DNA of 64,000 nt, taken from Cristatella mucedo. Its lineage: Eukaryota; Bryozoa; Phylactolaemata; Cristatellidae. Position numbers and translations under genes: made by a program. The notes beneath the pieces are model-generated. The model worked only from the letters and a program-made list of their open reading frames with translations, had not been told where the DNA came from and did no database searches. Below, piece by piece: positions 1,183 to 60,475 of the stretch (positions within the stretch are counted from its first letter, which is position 1; the number at the start of each line of letters is the position of its first letter). The DNA is taken from the NCBI GenBank assembly GCA_009760855.2, contig WPIO01000044.1, positions 1,092,001 through 1,156,000 on the forward strand, written 5' to 3'.

Positions 1183-3002
1183 ACGCCTAAGAACAGGCCG
1201 AAAAATCCGTGCAGCCCTAACGCAGTCCAAGATCGTTCGTGATAAGCGAGTGGAGGCGTTTTACGTTGAACGGGATATTAGCCGGGCTCCAATCGTAGTT
1301 TACTCCAAAAGTAAGTATGGAACCACTGCCTAACTGAGACAACGAAGGCGCTCTTCTTCCTGACTGCAGCACCAATCTTCGGAGTGCAGCAGCCAGCCCC
1401 ACTTCATTCCCCGAGCAGCTCGGCACACGATTCGGTACCCCACTTGCCGAATGAAGGCAGTGAGTACATCAGGCCGGGTCAAGGAGATGTAGATGATTGC
1501 TTAGACCAGGTCTAGCTCACGATGCCAATGAAACAAACGAGCCCTGTCAAGGCAGCCAGTGAGGGCAACATGTGCTCGAGTGCGACCATCAGCACTGCAA
1601 CCTCTGAGGCTAAAGGCTAAAGCTATGCCGAAAAGTAGATGGCCAAATACTGCGCTGGCTCCATACGGTCTCAGTACCGAACGTATAGGGAACACTGGCC
1701 AGTGCAAAGAAAGCATTCTCAATGTTTATTCCTGGAAAGAGAGTAGCTAAAAGAAATGGCTTGTGCTTTTTTTAAAGCTTCAAGCGAACGTCTGCGTCAA
1801 GTTGCAGAAGCCAAAGCTGCAGGGCACAAATATTGCTGGATGCCTGCGTTCGCCAGCCGGCAGATGGCGCTGCACTAATGCAATATAGGCTGCCCCGGCA
1901 GCAACACGGTCCATGCTCTTCCTGACAGGCACCGACACAGTCGATTCGGTCAGTGCATTGCATGGTGGCATTCGAGCTGTGCGTATAAAACAGATCGTCA
2001 ATTGGGGAGCCTTCTTTCTCCTTTCCCCCTTTTTAACTGGAAGCTTTTGTTTAAACAGCAGTGCCTTCGTGTTGCACTCGCTCAGACCGAACAGCAGTGC
2101 TGCTGGGTGTACCGCTCACCTATAACGATCAAGTCGTGTCTGACCAGCAAACACCCAACGCAGTTAGGCTAGGGCAAATATACTGCAGAGAGCACCTTTC
2201 CAATCGTTCAAGTACAGCACCATAAGATTCAGGGAGTCGTCGGAGAGCTTAACTATAGAATGCAACACGAGGTCTTTCAGCAAATTTTGACAAATATGCA
2301 CAGCTTTTTCAAGGACATCATGAGGCAAGCTCATACTAAAAATAAATACCATACACTACTGAGAAAGCCAAAAGAGATAAGCAAAGCCACTCCAGGCACC
2401 CCAGCGATGACAAACGCCTAGAGGCTTGCAGAAGCAGGTCACTAGGCACAATTATATGTGAGCCGAAGTTCCGATGGAGGCCGCATCTGACAGAGGCTGC
2501 TAGCTGCCTCCCAATGCTGCTGCCTCAGGCTACTTCGGGGTGCTGACATGCTCCCTAGCTGCAGTGGCAGCAGCATCGCAAAGCATCACCTGCTGCGGTG
2601 AAGAGGAGCTGCCTTCGAAGCGCAACCCGGCATCACCGGCAGACTGGCTGCGATCGCTGTGTACGATTCGGTAGGGCTCAACTCGGGCCACCTGAAAAAA
2701 GAAAGGGTATATTTGCTATTATTTTATATTATATATAGCACTACTGCTGGTCCGTGCAAATGGCAGTCATCGCTGTATGGCAAGTCAGGGTCATAAAGAA
2801 CCCTACGGTTGAGTTTCCTGTGCCAACCGTGTTCACTCGTGTATTGCTACCTAGTTGGTTGTCTGCTTACCCGTCCAGCAACCAGCAACCGCATGCAGGC
2901 GCTTGCAGCAGCCCCAGCTTACTCCCGTGCTGGAGCCATTGCAGAAAATTGCAAAAGTCATAGCCTGCTTAGAAAAGAGTAGGGCAATCAAACTACTTCA
3001 CA
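1183..3002. other. Unassigned sequence
   Basis: No convincing exon. Overlapping short frames on both strands near 1500-1760 and 1780-2125 look like chance. An AT-rich patch lies near 2715-2745. Confidence 0.4.
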
Positions 3003-5885: not shown

Positions 5886-6043
5886 CGGGATATCGCGAGC
5901 CTCGCCAACAGACGGCAGGACCTCCGAATTCGGCATGCCTGTACAAGGACCGTGCAAGGTCACGGTCGAACTTCTGTCTTCCGCCTCTGCAGGTGCAGTG
6001 GCATTTTCTTTCCCCGAATCCCCACATCCCCCGGCAACAGAGT
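5886..6043 (-). CDS. Candidate exon, unknown protein
   Basis: 158 nt of open frame between TAGGTGTCAG|AC and ATCCCG|GTAAGTAG, phase 1 to 0. It encodes an acidic, Ser/Ala-rich disordered segment (DSVAGGCGDSGKENATAPAE...). The same frame past the donor reads CLHHRRTHTGEGLLF, which looks like the second half of a C2H2 zinc finger with its HTGE linker. No family recognised and no partner exons found. Confidence 0.3.
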
Positions 6044-6244
6044 CTGACACCTATAACATACAACCGTCACACAGACAACATGTGACCTCCAACAGATGCT
6101 TGCTGGAGGTGGCCCAGATTGACATAAATAATAATATAGCGTTTCCCTAATGCCCTGATAAAAAAAATGTACTTCAAGTAACAATGCACTTTTTTGAATG
6201 TGAGTCCTGAAATGAGTGAGCTTGAGAATCCGTCTGTAATGTAA

Positions 6245-11745: not shown

Positions 11746-12437
11746 AACTAAGCAAACACGGGAAGTTCGGTCTTAGAAGAGGTTAACAAAAATCTAAATT
11801 TGCTGCTCGGCCACTAAAGCGCAGGAATAAGGGGGCGGCTGAAAAGCATCCGTGACCGGTAGGCTGCAGAGGCCATCGACTGCAGCAACAGGGTCGGAAT
11901 GGTGGTGGAACTGACGACGTGAATCTAGTCTGGCACGCACAGGCACGAAATGAGCATGCTATATGCTATATGCTGCTTTCCAGCCCACACTGCTTCTCTG
12001 GCAGCAAGCTGTAAATCGCCTAGATACAGATTCGATTCTCCGTGCTATGCAATAAACTAATTATTTTCAATTTTTCCTTAAAGAACTAGCTTTGGCTCTA
12101 GAAAAATCGAGTCACAGTTTGCTTGCCTACGAATGACACATTCTGCTGGCGCTGCTAATGAATGCATGACAGACACAAACGACTGGCTAGCACAAGCTGC
12201 CGCTCTGACAAGAGCAGCTCTAATTACTTACAGCACCGGGTGCTGGCAGAGCATCAAACGAAGGCAGCTGACGGCTGCCTGATCCCAGCAGTAGCCGGCT
12301 CGAGTCCACCACTGATGCAGGCTGATCGCCAGGCTGAGACGAAAGTAGCAGCACTGCTGCTGTTCCCGCCTGGTTGCACACAGGGCTAGCACCGGCAGCT
12401 TCCCCATCTCCATTCATGTCTCCCTAGCAAAAAATAG
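11746..12437. other. Unassigned sequence
   Basis: A worn SINE/LINE-like tail may lie at 12005-12060 (GTAAATCGCCTAGATACAGATT). Otherwise nothing recognised. Confidence 0.35.
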
Positions 12438-13456
12438 CTGCATGCATTGATGACATCCGCACATGGATGGCAGCAAGTTTTCTAAAACTTAACGATGATA
12501 AAACTAACTTACTAGTTATGAGCAAACCCAGTGTGATCCAGAGATTGGAAAGGCTGACTCTCAAAATTGGCTCTGCCAGCATCTCTCCAGTTGAATCAGC
12601 TCGAAATCTAGGTGTCATATTCCAAAGCGACCTCTCGTTAGACGACCATATCAGCTCCACAGTCAAATCCGCCTATTTTCAGCTTCATAACATTGCTAAA
12701 ATTCGGGCTTGTTTAGATAAAGATGCCACATCCAAGTTGGTCCATGCATTCGTGACATCCCGTCTCGACTTCTGCAACTCACTGCTTACTGGCCTACTAG
12801 CATGTGCGATCAGGCGATTGCAGCTGGTGCAAAACTCGGCAGCTAGACTTGTCTGCCGTGAGCATCGCAGTTGCCACATCACTTCACTTCTCGCCTACCT
12901 GCACTGGCTACCAGTCAAGCAACGGATTGACTTCAAGGTTTTGTCGCTCACTTTTATGTCCCTTCATTCTATGGCTCCAGCCTATCTGTCAGATATACTA
13001 CCCCATCAGGCTAAGCATCGTACCACCCGCTTTTCGGAATCCAACAGTCTAGAAATACCTCATACAAACCTGAAATCCTTTGGAGACCGTGCATTTAGTT
13101 CATATGCTCCCAAAGCCTGGAACTCTCTCCCGACCTGCGTCAGAACATCCCCTGACCTGACCACATTTAAAAGGAACCTAAAAACACACCTATTTAGGAC
13201 AGCATTTAGTGGGTCCCTGTGATTTGTCCTTGATGTGCTTATGCGTGCTGACACTGTGCATGCTGCCACTAACCACATTTGCATGCTGACCCTGTGCATG
13301 TCACCCCTAACCATGTTTATTCATTTTGTTTGTTTTTTTCAAGCATGATTTTACTTACCTTTTAATTGCATTTCACTTAACAGCAAATGTAAAGCGCCTA
13401 GAGAGAGATTAAGTTCTCTGAGGGCGCTTTATCAAGTGAATTATTATTATTATTAT
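12438..13456 (+). mobile_element. LINE family 1, young subfamily A, 5'-truncated
   Basis: An uninterrupted 251-codon frame (12467-13222) covers the C-terminal part of ORF2 from [17 protein letters not shown] to FRTAFSGSL, then the full 3' UTR, hairpin tail and (ATT)n. It is nearly identical to 17061-18138, so insertion is probably recent. The truncated frame cannot itself retrotranspose. Confidence 0.92.
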
Positions 13457-15300: not shown

Positions 15301-16672
15301 AGCATTGCTGAGGACAAGCACTGGGATCATCGTGGAGGTGGAGTGTTTATTAAACTACCATTGGAGTGATAACAAACACGCAACATTAAGCGCTGGCACT
15401 AGCTATTGAGTAGCTGCCTAGTGAAAGGAATTCACTGAAGTTAAATTCCCATGCCCAGGTCTCTGGAATCAGTAGACATAACATTCTTGGAGATGCTATG
15501 GAAGTTATAGGAAAAGGTATCCATAATTCATGGGTTTTCGGGGTGAATAGGTGAGCATTTTTCATCGGGCATCACATTTTGGATTACATTTCCTAGGACT
15601 AGCAATGCCCTGTGTGAAAGCCATACTTCGAATACTAAAACAAGTCTCAGTCGCCTAGTTTGTTGCCGGATATAGCACTTTCCCCCTAAATTTCGAGAAA
15701 AATACTGTAGACATATGATGCCCGAGCTTGAGAGTGGCTTTCACCTTAGTTACGGTGAATGCATGGTGCAGCAGATGGACTAGAGCTGCTGCTGCTGCTT
15801 TGGCAAGGCTGATTTAAGGCCACCATGCATCCTAATGAAGCCACGGGATGTCTACTAAGGCTTAGCAACAGCAAGTCAAGTAGCAATCGAAGCGGCTTTA
15901 GCAGTCAGTAATGCTGCTTGTAACTGAGCCAGGCCGAGATCGTACCCACAGCCACCGGATGCAGCTGCTTGCCTTTGCCATCCTTTATTTGTGAGAGCAG
16001 CTCCAGTGGCACGAGCCATCATTAAGCCAACGATTTCCGGTGAATCACAAAGCAGCTTCATGAGTTACACAAAGGCAGCAAGATACTGACATCAATTCTC
16101 CTTAAAGGATCACCATTTTATGAGGAACTCGGACATCTGCACAGCCAGACCGCACTATGCTGCTTGCTCTTAATAAATGTACCGAGCTCAACAAGTCGAC
16201 CGCGCTCCAAGGCACATGCAGCATGCACGCACATCATCCCTTTCTAATTCCCTTGTATGCCAGTCTAGGTTGGCATGCTTTCAATAGGAGCCGGTCAGAC
16301 AAAATGCAAACTAACTGCAACAGTAGAGCACGCACTGGTTGCAAGAGAACTAAGACATGCAGGTCTTATTTAATTGCAAGTACAAATAGAATATACTAGT
16401 TTCATGTGGGTGTCCAGTGTCTATGGTCACAGCAGAATGTGTACAGCTGAGCATTGCAGTAAGTCGGCTATCTTAATTCTAACTCTACAAATATTTTAGC
16501 ATGCTATTTGGCATACTTCTACTGACATTTATTATTATTACCTCATCGTTCGAAAATCCCTCGGAAGCAGTTATTGACGACAAACCATCCATGGTAACAC
16601 CAAAAGTTGATGTCGGGTGAAGAGGGCTACAATAGCAGTTGCACAAGCAACATTTCAGACAATGCCAACGAG
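15301..16672. other. Unassigned sequence
   Basis: 1.37 kb without a repeat or exon that I recognise; all frames are short. Confidence 0.35.
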
Positions 16673-16857: not shown

Positions 16858-17060
16858 AGCTATCAACTATGGTGAGGCACTGGCAACCCACAAAACACAG
16901 CAAATGCCTCTACTTACAAAGACAGCTCACACAACGAGCTACCAGGGTAAGCATGTCACTTAATCGTCAAGGCTGGTTCAGGTTTGCAGGCAGCCTCCTA
17001 ATGGAGTAAGTTATCTGTGATAGGCTAACTTGTTACCAAGATATGAATGCACTGCATGCA

Positions 17061-18106
17061 TCCCTCCCAGCCTTCGAGCACCTCAAACTCTCTAAACTCA
17101 CTAGTTGCATGCATTGATGACATCCGCACATGGATGGCAGCAAATTTTCTAAAACTTAACGATGATAAAACTAACTTACTAGTTATGGGCAAACCCAGTG
17201 TGATCCAGAGATTGGAAAGGCTGACTCTCAAAATTGGCTCTGCCAGCATATATCCAGTTGAATCAGCTCGAAATCTAGGTATCATATTCCAAAGCGACCT
17301 CTCGTTAGACGACCATATCAGCTCCACAGTCAAATCCACCTATTTTCAGCTTCATAACATTGCTAAAATTCGGGCTTGTTTAGATAAAGATACCACATCC
17401 AAGTTGGTCCATGCATTCGTGACATCCCGTCTCGACTTCAGCAACTCACTGCTTACTGGCCTACTAGCATGTGCGATCAGGCGATTGCAGCTGGTGCAAA
17501 ACTCGGCAGCTAGACTTGTCTGTCGTGAGCATTGTAGTTGCCACATTGCACCACTTCTCGCCGACCTGCACTGGTTCCCAGTCAAGCAACGGATTGACTT
17601 CAAGGTTTTGTCACTTACTTTCAGGTCACTTCATTCTTTGGCTCCAGCCTATCTGTCAGATATACTACCCCATCAGACCAAGCATCGTACCACCCGCTTT
17701 TCGGAATCCAACAGTCTAGAAATACCTCATACAAACCTTAAATCCTTTGGAGACCGTGCATTTAGTTCGTATGCTCCCAAAGCCTGGAACTCTCTCCCGA
17801 CCTGCGTCAGAACATCCCCTGACCTGACCACATTTAAAAGGAACCTAAAAACACACCTATTTAGGACAGCATTTAGTGGGTCCCTGTGATTTGTCCTTGG
17901 TGTGCTTATGAGTGCTGACACTGTGCATGCTGCCACTAACCACATTTGCATGCTGACCCTGTGCATGTCACCCCTAACCATGTTTATTCATTTTGTTTGT
18001 TTTTTTCAAGCATGATTTTACTTACCATTCAATTGCATTTCACTTTACAGCAAATGTAAAGCGCCTAGAGAGAGATTAAGTTCTCTGAGGGCGCTTTATC
18101 AAGTGA

Positions 18107-25708: not shown

Positions 25709-26705
25709 AAAATAATAATAATATCAACACACTTGATAAAGCCCCCTCAGAGAACTCAATCTCTTTCTAGGTGCTTTACATTTGCTGCAAAGGAAACACA
25801 ATCAAACGGTTGGTGGTAGCATGCTCGATAAACAACAAGAATAACATGGTTAGGGGTGACAGGCACAGGGTCAGTATGCAAGTGTGGTTAGTGGCAGCAT
25901 GCACAGTGTCAGTATGCATTAGCACATAAAGGACGAATCACAGGGACCCACTAAATGCTGTCAAAAAAAGTGTTTTTAATTTCTTTTTAAAGGTGGTAAA
26001 GTCAAGGGATGTCGTGACGAAAGTCGGGAGTGAGATCCTGGCTTTGGGAGCATACGACCTAAAAGGCACAGTCTCCATAGGATTTCAGGTTTGTACGATG
26101 TATAGGTAAACAGATTCCGAAAAGCAGGTAGTATGAGGCTTAGCCTGGTGGGGGAGTAGATCTGATAGGGAAGGCTAGAGCCAAAGAATGAAGGAACCTA
26201 AAAGTAAGTGGCAAAATCTTGAAGTCGATGCTTTGCTTGACTGGTAGCCAGTGCAGGTCGGCAAGAAGTGGTATGATGTGGCAATTGTGACACTCACGAC
26301 AGACAAGCCTAGCTGCAGAGTTCCGCACCACTTGTAAGCTTCTGGTAGCACAGGCCGGTAGACCAGCAAGCAGTGAGTTACAGAAGTCAAGACGGGATGT
26401 CACAAATGCATGAACCAACTTAGATGTGATATCCCTGTCTAAACAAGCCCGAATTTTAGCAATGTTATGTACCTGAAAGTAGGCAGACTTGATTGTGGAG
26501 TTGATGTGGTCGTCTAATGAAAGGTCACTTTGGAACATGACACCTAGATTTCGTGCAGATTCAACAGGAGATATGCTGGTAGAGCCGATTTTGAGTGTTA
26601 GCTCTTTAATTTTTGAATCACATTTGGTTTGCCCAACTAACTAGTAATTTAGTTGTATCATCATTCAGTTTAAGAAAATTTGCTGCTATCCATGTGCAAA
26701 TGTTA
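25709..26705 (-). mobile_element. LINE family 1, 1-kb copy
   Basis: Tail and 3' UTR, then ORF2 back to NFLKLNDDTTKL, including a 132-codon open stretch (26140-26538: FQSDLSLDDHINSTIKSAYF...). Frameshifted elsewhere. Confidence 0.88.
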
Positions 26706-28898: not shown

Positions 28899-28910
28899 GC
28901 TTACCTCAGC
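28899..28910 (-). other. Splice donor ending the TIR-RHIM exon
   Basis: CTGAG|GTAAGC on the minus strand is a near-perfect donor. The TAA that appears to end the frame is bases 2-4 of the intron. The next exon must lie below 28.9 kb or outside what I can recognise. Confidence 0.6.
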
Positions 28911-29709
28911 TCGGTGACCTCGCCCGACCTCAGCCAGCTCGGGGCACAGTAGTGCGTGGCATTTGAGTCGCCAACTTGCACCGTCGACTGGTGTGCGCTT
29001 ACGTTGATATTGTATATGACTGTCGAAGGCACGTGTGCGTTCGATGCCACCGCCGGTCGACGTGTGCGCCCGCACTGGGTGGCACTCGAACGAACCGACA
29101 CGCCGGCAGCCATGCCAACGCCGCCATCGTTTCCCGCCTTGGCGGCAGAAGCAGCTGCCGGCTTCGTCTGCCGCTCCAGCTGCAGCCTTCGCTCCTCCTC
29201 CTCTTCCTCCTCCTGCAGGGTGAGCTTCGCATTCTGCCACTGGGCCTCCAGCTCGCGCCACAAGCTCTCCGCTGCGTCCGACTTGAGCAATCCGGTCACG
29301 GCAGCCTCGAAGTGGCGGTCGCGGCAGTAGAGGCCGGTCAGCGAGCCGAAGCCCCAAGCCAGGCGCCTGTACTGCGACTTGGGCTTGCAGTAGATGGGTA
29401 TCAGCCGGCTGGCATAGCGCCTGCTGCGGACGAGCGCGGTCTGGGCCAGCAGCTCGCCACAGTGCTGCTCGAGGAAGCCGCCGCGCTCGGCAAAGAACGA
29501 GTCGGTGGCATAGACGAACCAGTACTGGCTGTTGCGCACGGCCAGCTCGGTGCGCCTGTACTCGTCGGCCTCCAGTGCCAGCAGGCCGGCGTCGTTGTAC
29601 AGGCGACCGGAGAAGCCGAGACGCTCCAGGCGCTCGAACAGCTCCTGCGCTTCGCCACCGGCGTCGTCGGCGAAGAAGAGGACGAAGCGGCGCAGCGGCA
29701 GACGACCGT
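28905..29709 (-). CDS. TIR - coiled coil - RHIM adaptor-like protein, internal exon
   Basis: The frame is open from 29992 (TTG, not a start) to 28901; residues below count from 29992. TIR domain, about 101-236: RRFVLFFADD (first strand), helix ELFERLERLGF, loop YNDAGLLALEADE, strand YWFVYATDSFF, strand RLIPIYCKP, last helix HFEAAVTGLL. An acidic coiled coil (LWRELEAQW..., then a Glu run) spans 240-275. A low-complexity linker follows. At 325-348 comes IYNIN...STVQVGDSNATHY, which has the RHIM core [IV]-Q-[VIL]-G-x-x-N and the preceding I-Y-N of RIPK1/RIPK3. TIR-helix-RHIM is the order of vertebrate TRIF (TICAM1), which signals from TLRs to RIP kinases and TBK1. The exon ends CTGAG|GTAAGC, so the stop lies inside an intron. 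Its 5' end is a guess: CTGCTGCAG|AC at 29709, TTTGCAG at about 29822, or an unspliced ATG at about 29782. GC content is far above the flanks. TICAM orthology is inference. Confidence 0.8.
28949..29020 (-). other. RHIM amyloid motif
   Basis: This codes for VQVGDSN with an upstream IYN. RHIMs are short segments that stack into amyloid fibrils in RIPK1, RIPK3, TRIF and ZBP1. Core residues V338, Q339, V340, G341 and N344 are all present (numbering from 29992). Asn/Ser/Thr/His-rich flanks also fit. Confidence 0.75.
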
Positions 29710-30104
29710 CTGCAGCAGCAGAAGCGCGACGCACTGGTGGCGTGGCATGACGCAAGCGCCCTCCGAGCGGTGGCCTGCCCATAGAGCCCGAGGACGACTG
29801 GCTCAGCCACTTGGCAACCGATTCCAGCTGCAAAGCCACGTGCCTAGGCGAAGGTCGGGTGGCTCGAGGCCAAGCACAGACGGGCCTATAATCGCCGATG
29901 CACAAGCCCGAAATGAAAACGTCATCTGGTCTCAACGACTTACTGATTGGACTGGTGCACTCGGCGCTTCTCGGCAGGTGGGTTCCAGACAAAACATGCC
30001 CCCTCCCACCAAAAAAGGCCTGAGCTCAGGCAGAGACCAGGAGCTGTCTCCATGCTGATTCTCAGGGTTACGAGTGTGTATTAGGGGGCGGGAGCCATGT
30101 GGCT

Positions 30105-30418
<314 letters not shown>

Positions 30419-31919: not shown

Positions 31920-32620
31920 ATAATGAACTAAATCTCTTTCTGGGCACTGTATAAGTGCTAGAAAGTAAGCATTTCAATTTTAGTGATAAAATAACGCTTT
32001 CTGTCTGTACGCACATGTGCACGCACAGAACAAATTTTTACACGGACCCAGCAATTGCTATGAGCAACAGGTGCGATTTTAGCTCCTTTTTTAACGTCAT
32101 CAAGTCAGAGGATGTCGCTACCTCTGTCGCGATTCATACAAGCTGCAGGTATGGTCTCCACGAAGTTTGAGGTAGGCTGAGGCACAGTTAAACGGAAAGG
32201 TAGGCCGGAGTAAGAGAATGAAAAGACTTTATTGCGTGAAACAAAAACTTGAATTTTATAAGTTTCTTGGTTATTAGAAAGCTCGCGGCGGTGAGACGAG
32301 GTGCAACGTAACAGTTCGACGTTCGTGACAGACAAGCCCTAGCTGCCAAGTTTGGCGGAAACTGTAAGCGTCTTATTGTACAGACAGGAGTAATACAAAT
32401 AATATTAACAAGACATTTGTATGGGGCCCTGGCAAGATTGGCGAGTAATGAGTTACAGTAGTTGAGACGGGATGTCACAAATGCATGGACGAACATGGAT
32501 GCGGTATCCTTGCCTAACTATGCCCGAACTTTTGAAATGGTACATCCCTGAAAATGGGCAGGCTTAACTGTGGAGCTAATGCAGTCATCGAGTGAAATAT
32601 AGCTTCGGAACAGAGCAATA
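31920..32620 (-). mobile_element. LINE family 1, decayed copy
   Basis: Tail (TAATGAACTAAATCTCTTTC), 3' UTR remnants and ORF2 ([19 protein letters not shown], 32188-32496) with many changes. Confidence 0.75.
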
Positions 32621-32687
32621 AGCTATAAACTTCTGACGGATCGCGTGGGCAGCATAAAAGCTCGTTGTAATTACTTCCGAGACCTAC

Positions 32688-32706
32688 CGACGATGGACGG
32701 ATCCAT
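32688..32706 (-). CDS. Candidate 19-nt first coding exon (TIR-RHIM gene?)
   Basis: An ATG at 32706 encodes MDPSIV plus one base and is followed by G|GTAGGT. The phase (1) matches the acceptor at 29709, which would give MDPSIVDGRLPLRRFVLFF. It lies about 300 nt below a CCAAT-containing, GC-rich region. Support is phase, a canonical donor and position only. Confidence 0.3.
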
Positions 32707-32989
32707 AGCAGCCTGGCGCTACACGGAGCAGCGAGAGAAAAAGCTCCGAATCTCGCACGCTCCGATGCGATCAGTCAACTTCCTTCAGCATGGATGTTCC
32801 TGTAGTGTACAACCCGCGACACCTAAGGACGCTTACAGTGCGAGTCGCGGGAGATCCGGCGGCTCGACCTTGACCCTATTAGCTAGGTCGGCCGCACCTA
32901 TGAAGAGGAACTCTTCCGCGGAGCTATCTCCCTTCCAGCAATCCGAGCCACACAAAGTAAAGCGAAACTAGGATAACCACCACTGGAAA

Positions 32990-33070
32990 CGACGGTCGTA
33001 CGGTGTCTCATTGGTCAATCTTCGATCCAATCCGGAGATGGCAACAGCGGTAGCGTGGCTTGTCTGGTTT
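32990..33070. promoter_or_regulatory. CCAAT-cluster promoter-like region
   Basis: ATTGGTCAATC near 33010 and CCAATCC near 33028 form back-to-back NF-Y-type sites, followed by GAGATGGCAACAGCGGTAGC (YY1/RFX-like half sites). The block 32640-33120 is GC- and CpG-richer than its flanks. It could serve the minus-strand candidate exon at 32706 or a plus-strand transcript. Confidence 0.35.
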
Positions 33071-33159
33071 CCTGTCGACCGTGCCTTCGCTGCCCCTGAT
33101 AACTGAGGCTGCTGCGACGTCTATAATTTAGCGGTGTATGATGTCCCGTGCATGGGCAT

Positions 33160-33194
33160 TGGCTTTCTCTCTTTCTCTTTCCCCCTCTCTCTTT

Positions 33195-33277
<83 letters not shown>

Positions 33278-33279
33278 GC
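33160..33279 (+). repeat. (CT)n microsatellite
   Basis: About 75 nt of pure CT after a CT/C-rich lead-in. Confidence 0.95.
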
Positions 33280-33427
33280 TGTGCGCTTGAAGAACCCTTA
33301 TTAATCCAATCCTTTGAACTACGTGGTATTTAGTTTACAGTGCTGTATATTAGTCTTAAGGTTAGAGAGTGCTCCTTTAAGTGAACCAATCAGCTTAATA
33401 AAAAGATAATGGCTTATTAGCCTATAA

Positions 33428-33690
33428 TAATGGTGATTCACAAAGCATCCCAAGAGAACTAGAACTCTTTCTAGGCACTTGAGATGTGGCCGAAAGGAAG
33501 CAGGTCAACTGATTCGTAAATCGCATTTCACACAAGTATGCAATAACAATAATTATTATCATAGGGCATTTGTATAGCACCGTAGGATAACTTAAACTCT
33601 AGCCATACACTTTATAATTGGCTGCAAGAGAATAAATACCCAAGGGTTGGCGACTTGCATGGTATCAAACATTAAAAATAAGAAATTGAT
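33428..33690 (-). mobile_element. Two LINE family 1 tail remnants
   Basis: 33428-33535 and 33545-33690 each start with a degraded tail. The second carries the older-subfamily 3' UTR (AATACCCAAGGGTTGG) also seen near 4380. Confidence 0.65.
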
Positions 33691-33695
33691 AAAAA

Positions 33696-33805
33696 ATAAT
33701 GAGCTGATTTAACAGCCGTTCTTTATAGCAAATGTAAAGTGCCTAGAAAGTAATTGAGTTCTCTGAGGGCGCTATATCAAATGCATTGCTATTATTATTA
33801 TTTAA
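33696..33805 (+). mobile_element. SINE-B tail fragment joined to a LINE tail
   Basis: GAGCTGATTTAACAGCCG (a minus-strand SINE-B tail), then GCAAATGTAAAGTGCCTAG...GGGCGCTATATCAAATG and (ATT)n on the plus strand. Confidence 0.65.
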
Positions 33806-33811
33806 TAATAT

Positions 33812-33955
33812 TATTTAATATAATTCATTTGTATAGCGCCCTAAGAGAACTTAATCTCTATTCAGGCGCTTCACACATGCCTCAGGGCTCGAGCCCACGA
33901 CCTCAACCAGACCTTGGCTGGGGGCGAGCACCTTAACCGCTGGACCAAACCAGTA
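33812..33955 (-). mobile_element. SINE-A copy, near full length
   Basis: Tail TTCATTTGTATAGCGCCC at the left, box B GGGCTCGAGCCC and head ending AACCGCTGGACCAAACCAG. A good reference copy. Confidence 0.88.
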
Positions 33956-33956
33956 G

Positions 33957-34280
33957 TAGCAGTAGTAGTAGTGCGTTTTTATCTGCCTTTTAAATTTTCT
34001 CATGTCAGGGGATGTCGCAACATCAGTTGAGAGTGAGTTCCATGCTTTGGGAGCATGCAAATGACAGGCGCGGTCTTCAAAGAATTTAGTGGATTAGGGA
34101 CACAGCTAGCTAAGTGACTAATCAGAGGAGTGTACAAGGGCTAGCCTGGCGGGGAAGCATTTCAGACAGATTGGCCGGATGTGTATTCTGTAGCAAGAAC
34201 CCAAGTTTAAAATAACAATGACAGGACCTTAGATACGTTGCTTGATGGGTAGCCGCACAGGTCGGTGTGTGGTGTGATGG
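33957..34280 (-). mobile_element. LINE family 1, ORF2 3' fragment without tail
   Basis: Minus strand HAPKAWNSLSTDVATSPDMRKF and flanking sequence. It follows an AGT-rich run directly beside the SINE. Confidence 0.7.
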
Positions 34281-34324
34281 AATTTACTTTCGAGTGGTTT
34301 TTCTGCTCTCGTTGCAATTAAGCG

Positions 34325-34470
34325 TTGCTGAAATCCCTCTTATTCGTATTTCAACCGCCTTAGCGGCTATAACCACTGCTTCGCAGTGAGCAATAAAGGA
34401 TTGCCAGCCGAAGGACTCGAACCCACGATCTGAGTCGTAAAGCGCGAGCACTTTAACCCTGGGCAAAGAT
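34325..34470 (-). mobile_element. SINE-B copy, tail degraded
   Basis: TTAGCGGCTATAACCACTGC, AATAAAGGATTGCC and GGACTCGAACCCACGA (box B complement), then the tRNA-like head. Confidence 0.75.
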
Positions 34471-36182
34471 TCGCAGACAAAGTACAATCCTCCCTCCCGA
34501 AAGCCCATGGCTATGCACTTTTATTAGGGTGGTGTTCAAAATCAACCTTACGCGGGCAAGAGCACAAGTTTTTAAAAGTCTGCTGATGTCCACCGTGGTT
34601 TATTTTTATTTTTGCTGTCCGGGTGGCTTAGTAAGTCAACCGGGGATGTATTTCTTCCAAATGTGCCGAATTTCTTCGAAACAAGTGGACGGCCAGGTGC
34701 AAGGGGTCTTCATTTTCAATATTGTATGAAAGCTATTGGTCTTCAATAGGAAGCCGCTGTTGTGAACACTTAGCAATGGACTTGCACAGTTTATTGTGAA
34801 GCTATTGCTCATCCGATTTCGCTTCGGTGTCAGGCTACGCCAACCGGTCGCCAGGCAGCTAGGCTGTCCTCGCTCAAGAGACGAACTCGAACTGGAGTTC
34901 TCGATTGGTGCCTTCGACAAGACATCCACACCCTTCCATTCCCCCAGCCATTTAGACCGCTCCAGCCTGAAAATCTTTATGCATATGGCGCGTAGCCCGG
35001 ATAGGCTCTTCAGCCGCTCTAAGAAAATTACCTACCCCATTTCATGTACCCTGAAGGTCGGTGGCGAGGGCGTGCAGGAAACATGTTTGAACCGGTCTGA
35101 AAAGAAATCTTCACGTCCACTAGAACCTGGAGCCGCACGCCGGACCCAGCATGCCTGCCGCACGTTTATTTAGTCACAACAAAAACAAAAATGGACAGCC
35201 CTTCCCCAGATAGACACCCTAGAGGTTCGGGAAGGACTCTATAGTTTCTCGGAAAATTGGGCGCTCCCGATAGGTGGACGATCTGAAACACCGCCCAGTT
35301 GACCTTGGTAGTCATAACAGAGAAGAAATACCATTTTAGCCCGCCTAATAATATGAGTAATCCCTCTTTAAAAACCCAGCTATCGTCCCCATAGAAACTA
35401 TGTATGTCTGCACGTAAGGTTACCGCCTCACCCTCTTCAGTCTCACCCAACGACATGCACTTAAGTATCTATGTTTTGCTGTATGCTCAAACGTCCTGGA
35501 GCTTTATTCTCTCCAATCATGGACATGTATAGAACAACTTAGCAGTAAGAAATAATCTAGACTCGTATCGTACAGGCAGAGCTGAACTGGTATTTCAAAC
35601 TTCACTGATACGTTAAGTATGAGCCGAGTTAAGGAATGTCCAAGGCATCGAGCTGCACTGAAAATAAAGCTGTATTAAAGTCACAACCATGCACTTCACA
35701 ATAAACACGAATTGGGATACTAATGGCGCATAATGCAGATATCAATATTTTTTTATTTATAGATATATTGCTTCCGGTCTACAGATAGGTTAGATACGGA
35801 TTGCACAATAATTTTTTCTTGTGGGGAAGTCATCAGAACTTCTGACTCCATTTCTAACATGTTTGTCTTTTGAAATGCACCCTAAACACATTCGATTGCC
35901 GGATCACTAGGGGCCCCATATTTACTCACAAAGTGGCAGCCAGGAGAAACTCTCTGCATCGCCATTTAAGCATCCATTTCGACAGATCATGTACATTATA
36001 TATGCAACAAAACCAATGACTTTGTGCAATCGTGCAGCTGTGATGGCCATAACAGCTACTGTATATGATAGAATTGACCAAAACTGCTGATCAATCGGCG
36101 ACCATACTATTACTTATGAAACTACTTAACTCCACGTGCAATTGCAAAAGTCTGTCTGCAAAAGAAAATCAAAGGTCGACTT
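34471..36182. other. Unassigned sequence
   Basis: 1.7 kb. Frames of 97-125 codons at 34636-35456 on both strands show no family that I know. No repeat match inside the window. Confidence 0.3.

Positions 36183-37161: not shown

Positions 37162-60475
<23,314 letters not shown>

Follow-up and report, generated by a model that had tools for sequence, protein, structure and literature searches.

On the minus strand of the DNA analysed here lies a gene for a protein in which a TIR-like domain, an acidic helix and a RHIM-like motif follow one another in a single chain. The DNA, called the window, is 64,000 nucleotides long and corresponds to C387:1092001-1156000 in an assembly of 572,011,866 bases and 688 contigs; coordinates are those of the window unless a contig is named. 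The protein might be a TICAM-like or a convergent adaptor that connects TIR to RHIM signaling and works like TRIF, an analogy to which we give roughly even chances. This reading starts from computational observations: the structure of the gene, its conservation in one relative (protein P0001), a tandem paralog downstream, and a mitochondrial contig of non-vertebrate type in the same assembly.

That the locus is an intact nuclear gene is solid. Its seven coding exons, running from 32706 to 2051 (Table 1), were placed by tblastn and assignment of splice sites and are collinear with P0001. All six introns are of the GT-AG type, the exon phases agree, and the predicted protein of 470 residues, which continues after the RHIM-like motif in a tail of about 210 residues, shares the C-terminus QHEGTAV with P0001. 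Although the match of exon 7 is weak when taken alone (0.13), it stands in order and ends at the identical residues. An alternative in-phase donor of exon 2, 24 bases further on, would move the end of this exon to 28905 and yield 478 residues; it is stronger by eye, yet adds eight residues relative to P0001. Exon 1, which aligns with MDPFAID of P0001, appears to be the least certain coding exon, because this match is short, and its in-phase donor is its support. It contains the sole ATGGAnCCn of the minus strand of the window upstream of 29700; by our own estimate, a chance MDP occurs about once per 34 kb.

The initial annotation had taken the whole of 28905..29992 as coding. From 28905 or 28929 to 29709 the DNA is coding, the frame of exon 2 being 65% identical to P0001 over 274 columns, and LWRELEAQW...EEEEEE, IYN and VQVGDSN do lie in one open frame of the minus strand between 28905 and 29709. 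The rest, 29710-29992, is intron: the acceptor ctgctgctgcag stands just before 29709, and the P0001 reading carries on into exon 1 (32706-32688). Nor does the protein end with this exon: at LR* the open frame has run into an intron, and five more exons follow, down to the TAA at 2051-2053. The GC content at third codon positions is 0.83 in exon 2 and 0.69 in the whole coding sequence, and noncoding CpG is depleted (observed/expected 0.63). The block 32001-36000, around the proposed exon 1, has the highest CpG observed/expected (0.85) of the sixteen 4-kb blocks, compared with that noncoding value, and is a possible promoter region. Long arrays of (GA)n/(CT)n and of (CA)n/(TG)n are present at 30114-30418, in intron 1 and close upstream of the TIR exon, and at seven other places in the window.

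P0001 has 466 residues, is encoded on a contig of 1,894 bases, and was the one relative found by a word search of about 5.8 billion proteins (including nr, NCBI and UniRef); an alignment search returned the same single protein. Only candidates sharing words with the query are scored in these searches (7733 in the word search, the 8000 best-sharing ones in the alignment search) and, therefore, distant orthologs can be missed. Since this contig of 1.9 kb covers what spans 30.6 kb in the window, it probably represents a spliced transcript from another species, in which the gene is apparently expressed. The RHIM-coding part, whose removal by splicing had been considered in the initial annotation, is kept in frame in P0001, a finding that applies to the apparently spliced sequence of the relative. 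The N-terminal and TIR part is identical to P0001 at 121 of 148 positions (82%), the helix at 21 of 46 (5 gap columns), the linker that leads from the helix to the RHIM at 17 of 31 (12 gap columns), the RHIM segment at 20 of 26, with IYN and VQVGD.N both retained, and the tail at 122 of 204 (8 gap columns). The RHIM segment is thus better kept than the stretch that precedes it. It is not the sole conserved island after the TIR part, since the tail opens with a well-kept stretch (14/20 in sliding windows starting at columns 281 and 291).

An invertebrate origin, previously suggested on account of the repeats, finds a stronger basis in the mitochondrial contig C688 (21,008 bases), which is assumed from the common assembly to belong to the same animal as the window. 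This contig carries a large-subunit ribosomal RNA of mitochondrial length and, in the invertebrate code, ten frames that were all assigned by Pfam (nad1, cob, nad5, nad4, cox1, cox2, nad2-type, cox3, atp6, and nad3). AGA and AGG are used as sense codons, with 30 occurrences in the stop-to-stop frame of nad5, 31 in nad4, 13 in cob (including three ahead of the Pfam match), and 11 in nad1, which excludes the vertebrate code; a vertebrate origin of the window (lamprey or hagfish), which the GC-rich exon 2 and the depletion of noncoding CpG had suggested, was rejected for this reason. Within the first 14 kb, code 5 gives seven frames of 140 residues and the vertebrate code none. The genes nad1-nad6-cob-nad4-nad5, nad6 being named by its position only, follow one another on a single strand, an order that presumably recalls that of molluscs and other spiralians. 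C688 also contains direct and inverted duplications of about 2.1 and 1.8 kb that are 100% identical, due either to a real rearrangement or to an assembly artefact, and its nad2-type and cox2 frames are on the opposite strand.

Structural models, both of low confidence, make a TIR fold probable for the N-terminal domain. In the first model TIR-bearing chains occupied structural ranks 1-11, and rank 12 was an IL-17R/ACT1 assembly, whose domains we take to be TIR-related SEFIR. In the second, built from the TIR part alone and with a confidence no better, TIR structures occupied ranks 1-6 and caspase-6 was seventh. The acidic helix reached predicted local distance difference test (pLDDT) values of 66 and 82 in 10-residue blocks of the first model.

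The TIR part was compared with TRIF, TRAM, MyD88 and SARM1, whose letters were checked against PDB chains, and with TLR2, TLR3 and TLR4, whose letters are provisional. P0001 gave a Smith-Waterman score of 59 with human TRAM (0/1000 shuffles as good), in a collinear alignment from FVLFFADD/FVILHAED through to the W-R/K-E past the domain, and of 42 with TRIF (11/1000); MyD88, SARM1 and the three TLRs were at shuffle level (351 to 881 of 1000). A profile of the two orthologs scored 5.8 with TRAM (2/2000), 1.5 with MyD88 (47/2000) and 0.3 with TRIF (148/2000), the TLRs and SARM1 being null. When the paralog was included, the values were 9.3 bits for TRAM (0/5000), 1.2 for TRIF (176/5000), 0.0 for MyD88 (407/5000) and -2.3 for SARM1 (2375/5000). 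A profile of TRAM plus TRIF gave 9.6 bits with P0001 (0/3000) and -1.6 with the window protein (187/3000). Separate profiles were equalled, for P0001 and the window protein, respectively, by 4 and 359 of 3000 shuffles (TRAM), 245 and 1694 (TRIF), 225 and 341 (MyD88), and 1625 and 1546 (SARM1).

The combined profile of TRAM plus TRIF (the TICAM profile) consisted of TRIF and 73 TRAM rows, namely those of length 225-260 among the 88 proteins listed besides P0001 in a search that scored the 7999 candidates sharing most words; the named species are all mammals. With this profile P0001 was equalled by 0/5000 shuffles and the paralog alone scored 3.4 (18/5000). With hhalign the three-member family matched it over 136 columns with an expect value (E) of 4e-4 and a probability of 34%, and single sequences at 0.0049 (TRIF), 0.029 (MyD88), 0.041 (TRAM), and 0.42 (SARM1); because the TICAM profile is deeper than these single-sequence controls, it is favoured in the comparison. 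With two sequences only, hhalign was uninformative (probability below 3% for each of six targets). Neither a Death domain (MyD88 type) nor SAM and ARM domains (SARM1 type) were found in the exon frame or P0001, and 0/16 Death matches of the assembly are on contig C387. Kinship with TICAM proteins appears possible. The lean towards them is weak and uneven and seems to come mostly from P0001 and the paralog; with two orthologs and one paralog to go by, TICAM descent is no more than mildly favoured over convergence.

The RHIM-like motif is likely to be real. The core tetrad of RHIM motifs has been described as (V/I)-Q-(V/I/L/C)-G (PMC9444067), and the motif fits this with VQVG and also shares the D and N of RIPK3. 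Compared with the RHIM of human RIPK3, whose letters were confirmed, the segment scored 36 (shuffled mean 18.8, standard deviation 4.0, 10/5000 shuffles as good) and that of P0001 scored 35 (16/5000). Simulated windows contain the 7-residue RHIM pattern 0.19 times on average, and its sole other match in the real window sits in a stop-riddled frame; IYN plus the core was found 0 times in 100 simulated windows. Two strands of the first model, at 230-237 and 240-247, have a pLDDT of about 30 and, taken alone, are no evidence.

TRIF (TICAM1) is the vertebrate adaptor of TLR3 and TLR4 and couples the recognition of pathogens to cell-death signaling. The likeness to it, which presupposes that the TIR and RHIM assignments hold, consists of a TIR part, a helix with a W-R/K-x-E start and a RHIM C-terminal to the TIR, all in one chain, and both this order and the resemblance of the helix bear out the initial annotation. 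Different results, however, weigh against a TRIF-like adaptor. With the limit set at E 10, neither the exon nor P0001, the TIR piece or the paralog matched Pfam TIR or TIR_2; HMMER's own filtering removes the majority of hits weaker than 0.1. Searches of PDB sequences likewise found no TIR, and NCBIfam and PADLOC were also without a match. The TIR-like domain is too divergent for Pfam and its assignment is a remote one; the TIR fold initially proposed finds backing in the low-confidence models and in weak profile statistics and none in Pfam or PDB sequence matches. The window protein by itself is at shuffle level with all seven TIR proteins (TRIF 255, TRAM 320, the rest 331 to 943 of 1000) and scores -1.6 with the TICAM profile (339/5000); at equal depth, hhalign does not place TRAM (0.041) above MyD88 (0.029). 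As regards the motif, the Pfam RHIM model matched neither its 42-residue piece nor its 95-residue piece, nor the motif in a scan of the assembly in which 24 candidates were scored, and the short segment had no match in PDB sequence searches. Against the core of mouse RIPK1 the two RHIM segments score weakly, being equalled by 134 and 158 of 5000 shuffles. The alignment to RIPK3 runs through IYN, six extra residues and S-x-VQVGD-x-N; the claim that the core equals RIPK3 at all key positions is therefore right for VQVGDxN and wrong for the spacer between IYN and VQVG, which has nine residues instead of three.

The architecture differs from that of TRIF as well. The RHIM is internal (237-256 of 470) and not near the C terminus, whereas that of human TRIF has been located at 687-695 (PMC9440496). 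There is no N-terminal domain, the TIR part beginning at about residue 7 in both proteins, provided that the start of P0001 is its true start. A pLxIS motif is present in neither protein, and PxExx[DEFWY] (TRAF6) occurs once in the window protein and not in P0001, so no site is shared. The coding sequence is divided into seven exons, and with TRIF itself the TIR part scores no better, or little better, than shuffled sequences. Thus, the ancient or convergent TRIF-like adaptor of the initial annotation keeps the domain order, the invertebrate setting and the uneven TICAM lean, but has to do without the N-terminal domain, the C-terminal RHIM, pLxIS and a shared TRAF6 motif.

The best surviving alternative, with a fairly small chance of being right, is a TIR effector, that is, an enzymatic TIR that cleaves nicotinamide adenine dinucleotide (NAD+) and whose activity is triggered by seeding through the RHIM-like amyloid. 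The top structural matches are largely SPARTA TIR-APAZ, AbTir and plant resistance TIRs, which we take to be enzymes. Moreover, the two orthologs share two glutamates (in FLEQH and GELL) on the helix modelled behind the third strand, and the paralog retains that of GELL. However, the model is too poor for placing a catalytic glutamate, and the profiles lean, even if unevenly, to TICAM adaptors, with SARM1 at shuffle level. The model for such an effector is amyloid signaling in fungi and bacteria, where it is thought to switch on effectors; RIP1 and RIP3 RHIM motifs have been reported to cross-seed in part with fungal and bacterial motifs (PMC7889193), which also favours this possibility.

Slightly less probable is that the adaptor is real but VQVGDSN is a short linear motif serving something else than amyloid formation. 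Short motifs arise by chance, as the 7-mer does in simulated windows, and the missing Pfam match, the six-residue excess of the spacer and the weak similarity to mouse RIPK1 would all fit. This is countered by the conservation of the segment in P0001, with IYN and VQVGD.N kept, by the rarity of shuffles as good against RIPK3, and by its position after the TIR-like domain and helix. We consider a little less probable again that the N-terminal domain is some other alternating alpha/beta domain, flavodoxin- or caspase-like: LarB, caspases and flavoproteins are among the structural matches with close scores, in models of low confidence and with neither Pfam nor PDB recognising a TIR sequence, but TIR chains lead the ranking in both models and the profiles give a signal for TRAM while SARM1 stays at shuffle level. 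A decaying gene copy or a retroelement-derived open frame without function, which the repeat-rich surroundings might suggest, is very improbable given the intact reading across seven exons with GT-AG introns, the shared C-terminus and the 82% identity of the TIR part, P0001 having no significant match to the LINE-like (long interspersed nuclear element) frames of the window.

If the TICAM-like or convergent adaptor is the right reading, this intact invertebrate nuclear gene would encode a cytoplasmic adaptor whose divergent TIR-like domain is recruited by another TIR protein, either a Toll-type receptor or the neighbouring TIR-only paralog. The acidic helix would hold or space the molecule, and the RHIM-like strand-turn-strand would stack into a short amyloid recruiting a RHIM protein, for instance a RIP-kinase-like partner, so that the signal would be passed to NF-kB or cell death. 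The TIR fold, the expression, the amyloid formation, the partners and the pathway are the parts that this scheme supposes.

Other known systems share some of these traits. TRAM (TICAM2) is the best sequence match of the TIR part, by way of P0001, and has no TRIF-type N-terminal domain either; however, TRAM is devoid of a RHIM and the window protein alone does not rise above shuffles with it. The amphioxus bbtTICAM, compared by description only, is an invertebrate TICAM that, together with RIP and by means of a RHIM motif, has been reported to activate NF-kB (PMC6043800), although another survey describes RHIM motif and domain as missing in lancelets (PMC9440496). The searches that found P0001, within their limit to word-sharing candidates, returned no lancelet protein. 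Human RIPK3 has the same IYN and VQVGDxN, with the shorter spacer and in a kinase, which the window protein is not. The fungal PP motif and bacterial BASS3, also compared by description, are RHIM-related motifs thought to seed cell-death effectors (PMC7889193); they are described mainly at the ends of NLRs and effectors, whereas the present motif lies inside the protein, behind a TIR-like domain.

The paralog lies on the same strand at C387:1077792-1078265 (2e-30, 44% identical in the TIR part) and is the only other P0001-like place in the assembly at E 0.001, 13 candidates having been scored. Its frame, C387:1077198-1078313 (-), is open for 372 residues, about 16 kb downstream of the stop of the gene. 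A possible acceptor, cttgtag, precedes its D-x-R-L-P start in the same position as in the main gene, and the frame is also open farther upstream of it. No RHIM-like pattern was found in the six frames of the adjacent 40 kb that holds the paralog (C387:1052001-1092000). A TIR-RHIM gene beside a TIR-only gene of TRAM-like layout mirrors the arrangement of TRIF plus TRAM, the same duplication event not being claimed. It is a tentative idea, rather improbable on balance, that the two form a non-chordate tandem TICAM-like pair, one TRIF-like and one TRAM-like, neither of them recognised by domain models. If so, a TIR-to-amyloid branch of innate immunity would predate chordates or would have arisen a second time.

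One review notes that before amphioxus a TRIF homolog had not been known from any non-chordate (PMC6043800), and a TIR survey suggests that TRIF-type TIRs are restricted to gnathostomes (PMC7075850). Our literature search, judged by titles and the openings of abstracts, found no non-chordate TIR-RHIM protein among the papers listed. Zebra mussel, other spiralians and lancelets have been reported to possess RIPK1 homologs that combine a kinase, the RHIM tetrad and a Death domain (PMC12119088) and, therefore, a potential partner exists outside vertebrates. An invertebrate TIR-RHIM protein would qualify as a candidate for the upstream adaptor that has been missing, and the age of TIR-to-amyloid signaling would become testable; if convergent, TIR plus RHIM would be a solution reached more than once. 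In the assembly, no RIP-kinase-like partner was found by looking for RHIM and Death matches on one contig (best 24 and 17 candidates scored): the RHIM family scan gave eight weak matches, the best with E 0.26, none on a contig with any of the 16 Death matches. Two places, C497:1664652-1664699 (-) and C110:1716751-1716789 (-), were over the Pfam RHIM cut-off, with E 0.26 and 4.6, possibly by chance.

Table 1. Features of the TIR-RHIM gene, in window coordinates
Feature	Position	Strand	Basis or remark
Coding exon 1	32688..32706	-	19 bases, ATGGATCCGTCCATCGTCG, M-D-P-S-I-V-(D), donor gtaggt, phase 1
Part of intron 1	29710..29992	-	P0001 similarity ends at acceptor 29709/29710
Coding exon 2 (TIR-like domain, helix, RHIM)	28929..29709	-	tblastn match 29716-28928, 5e-97
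TIR-like domain, about residues 7-149	29282..29709	-	low-confidence models and uneven profile statistics
Acidic helix after TIR, LWRELEAQW...EEEEEE	29129..29281	-	most confident stretch of the first model
RHIM-like motif VIYNINVSAHQSTVQVGDSN, residues 237-256	28961..29020	-	conservation and RIPK3 shuffle test
Coding exon 3	16542..16626	-	tblastn match 16622-16539, 4e-8
Coding exon 4	12232..12423	-	tblastn match 12420-12223, 7e-8
Coding exon 5	5886..6050	-	tblastn match 6050-5880, 9e-11
Coding exon 6	2590..2691	-	tblastn match 2691-2557, 7e-6
Coding exon 7, stop TAA at 2051-2053	2051..2119	-	tblastn match 2104-2054, 0.13
Candidate polyadenylation signal AATAAA	1725..1730	-	about 320 bases past the stop

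Farther along contig C387, and judged by eye, the frame C387:1036353-1044547 (-) resembles a two-pore potassium channel and C387:994797-995195 (-) a phospholipase C fragment. LINE-like fragments, also recognised by eye, are present in the window at 12428-13222, 17047-17889, 26140-26640, 46187-46780, 52800-53513, and 57637-58164; among those scanned, Pfam RVT_1 was above cut-off for 46187-46780 only. They include two copy pairs 4.65-4.67 kb apart that are 96-97% alike, and several end in (ATT)n. Searches of collections of genome contigs and viral contigs returned no relatives of these elements. A 17-base minisatellite at 59207-59539 consists of about 20 copies of ACACGCCACACAGACAC.
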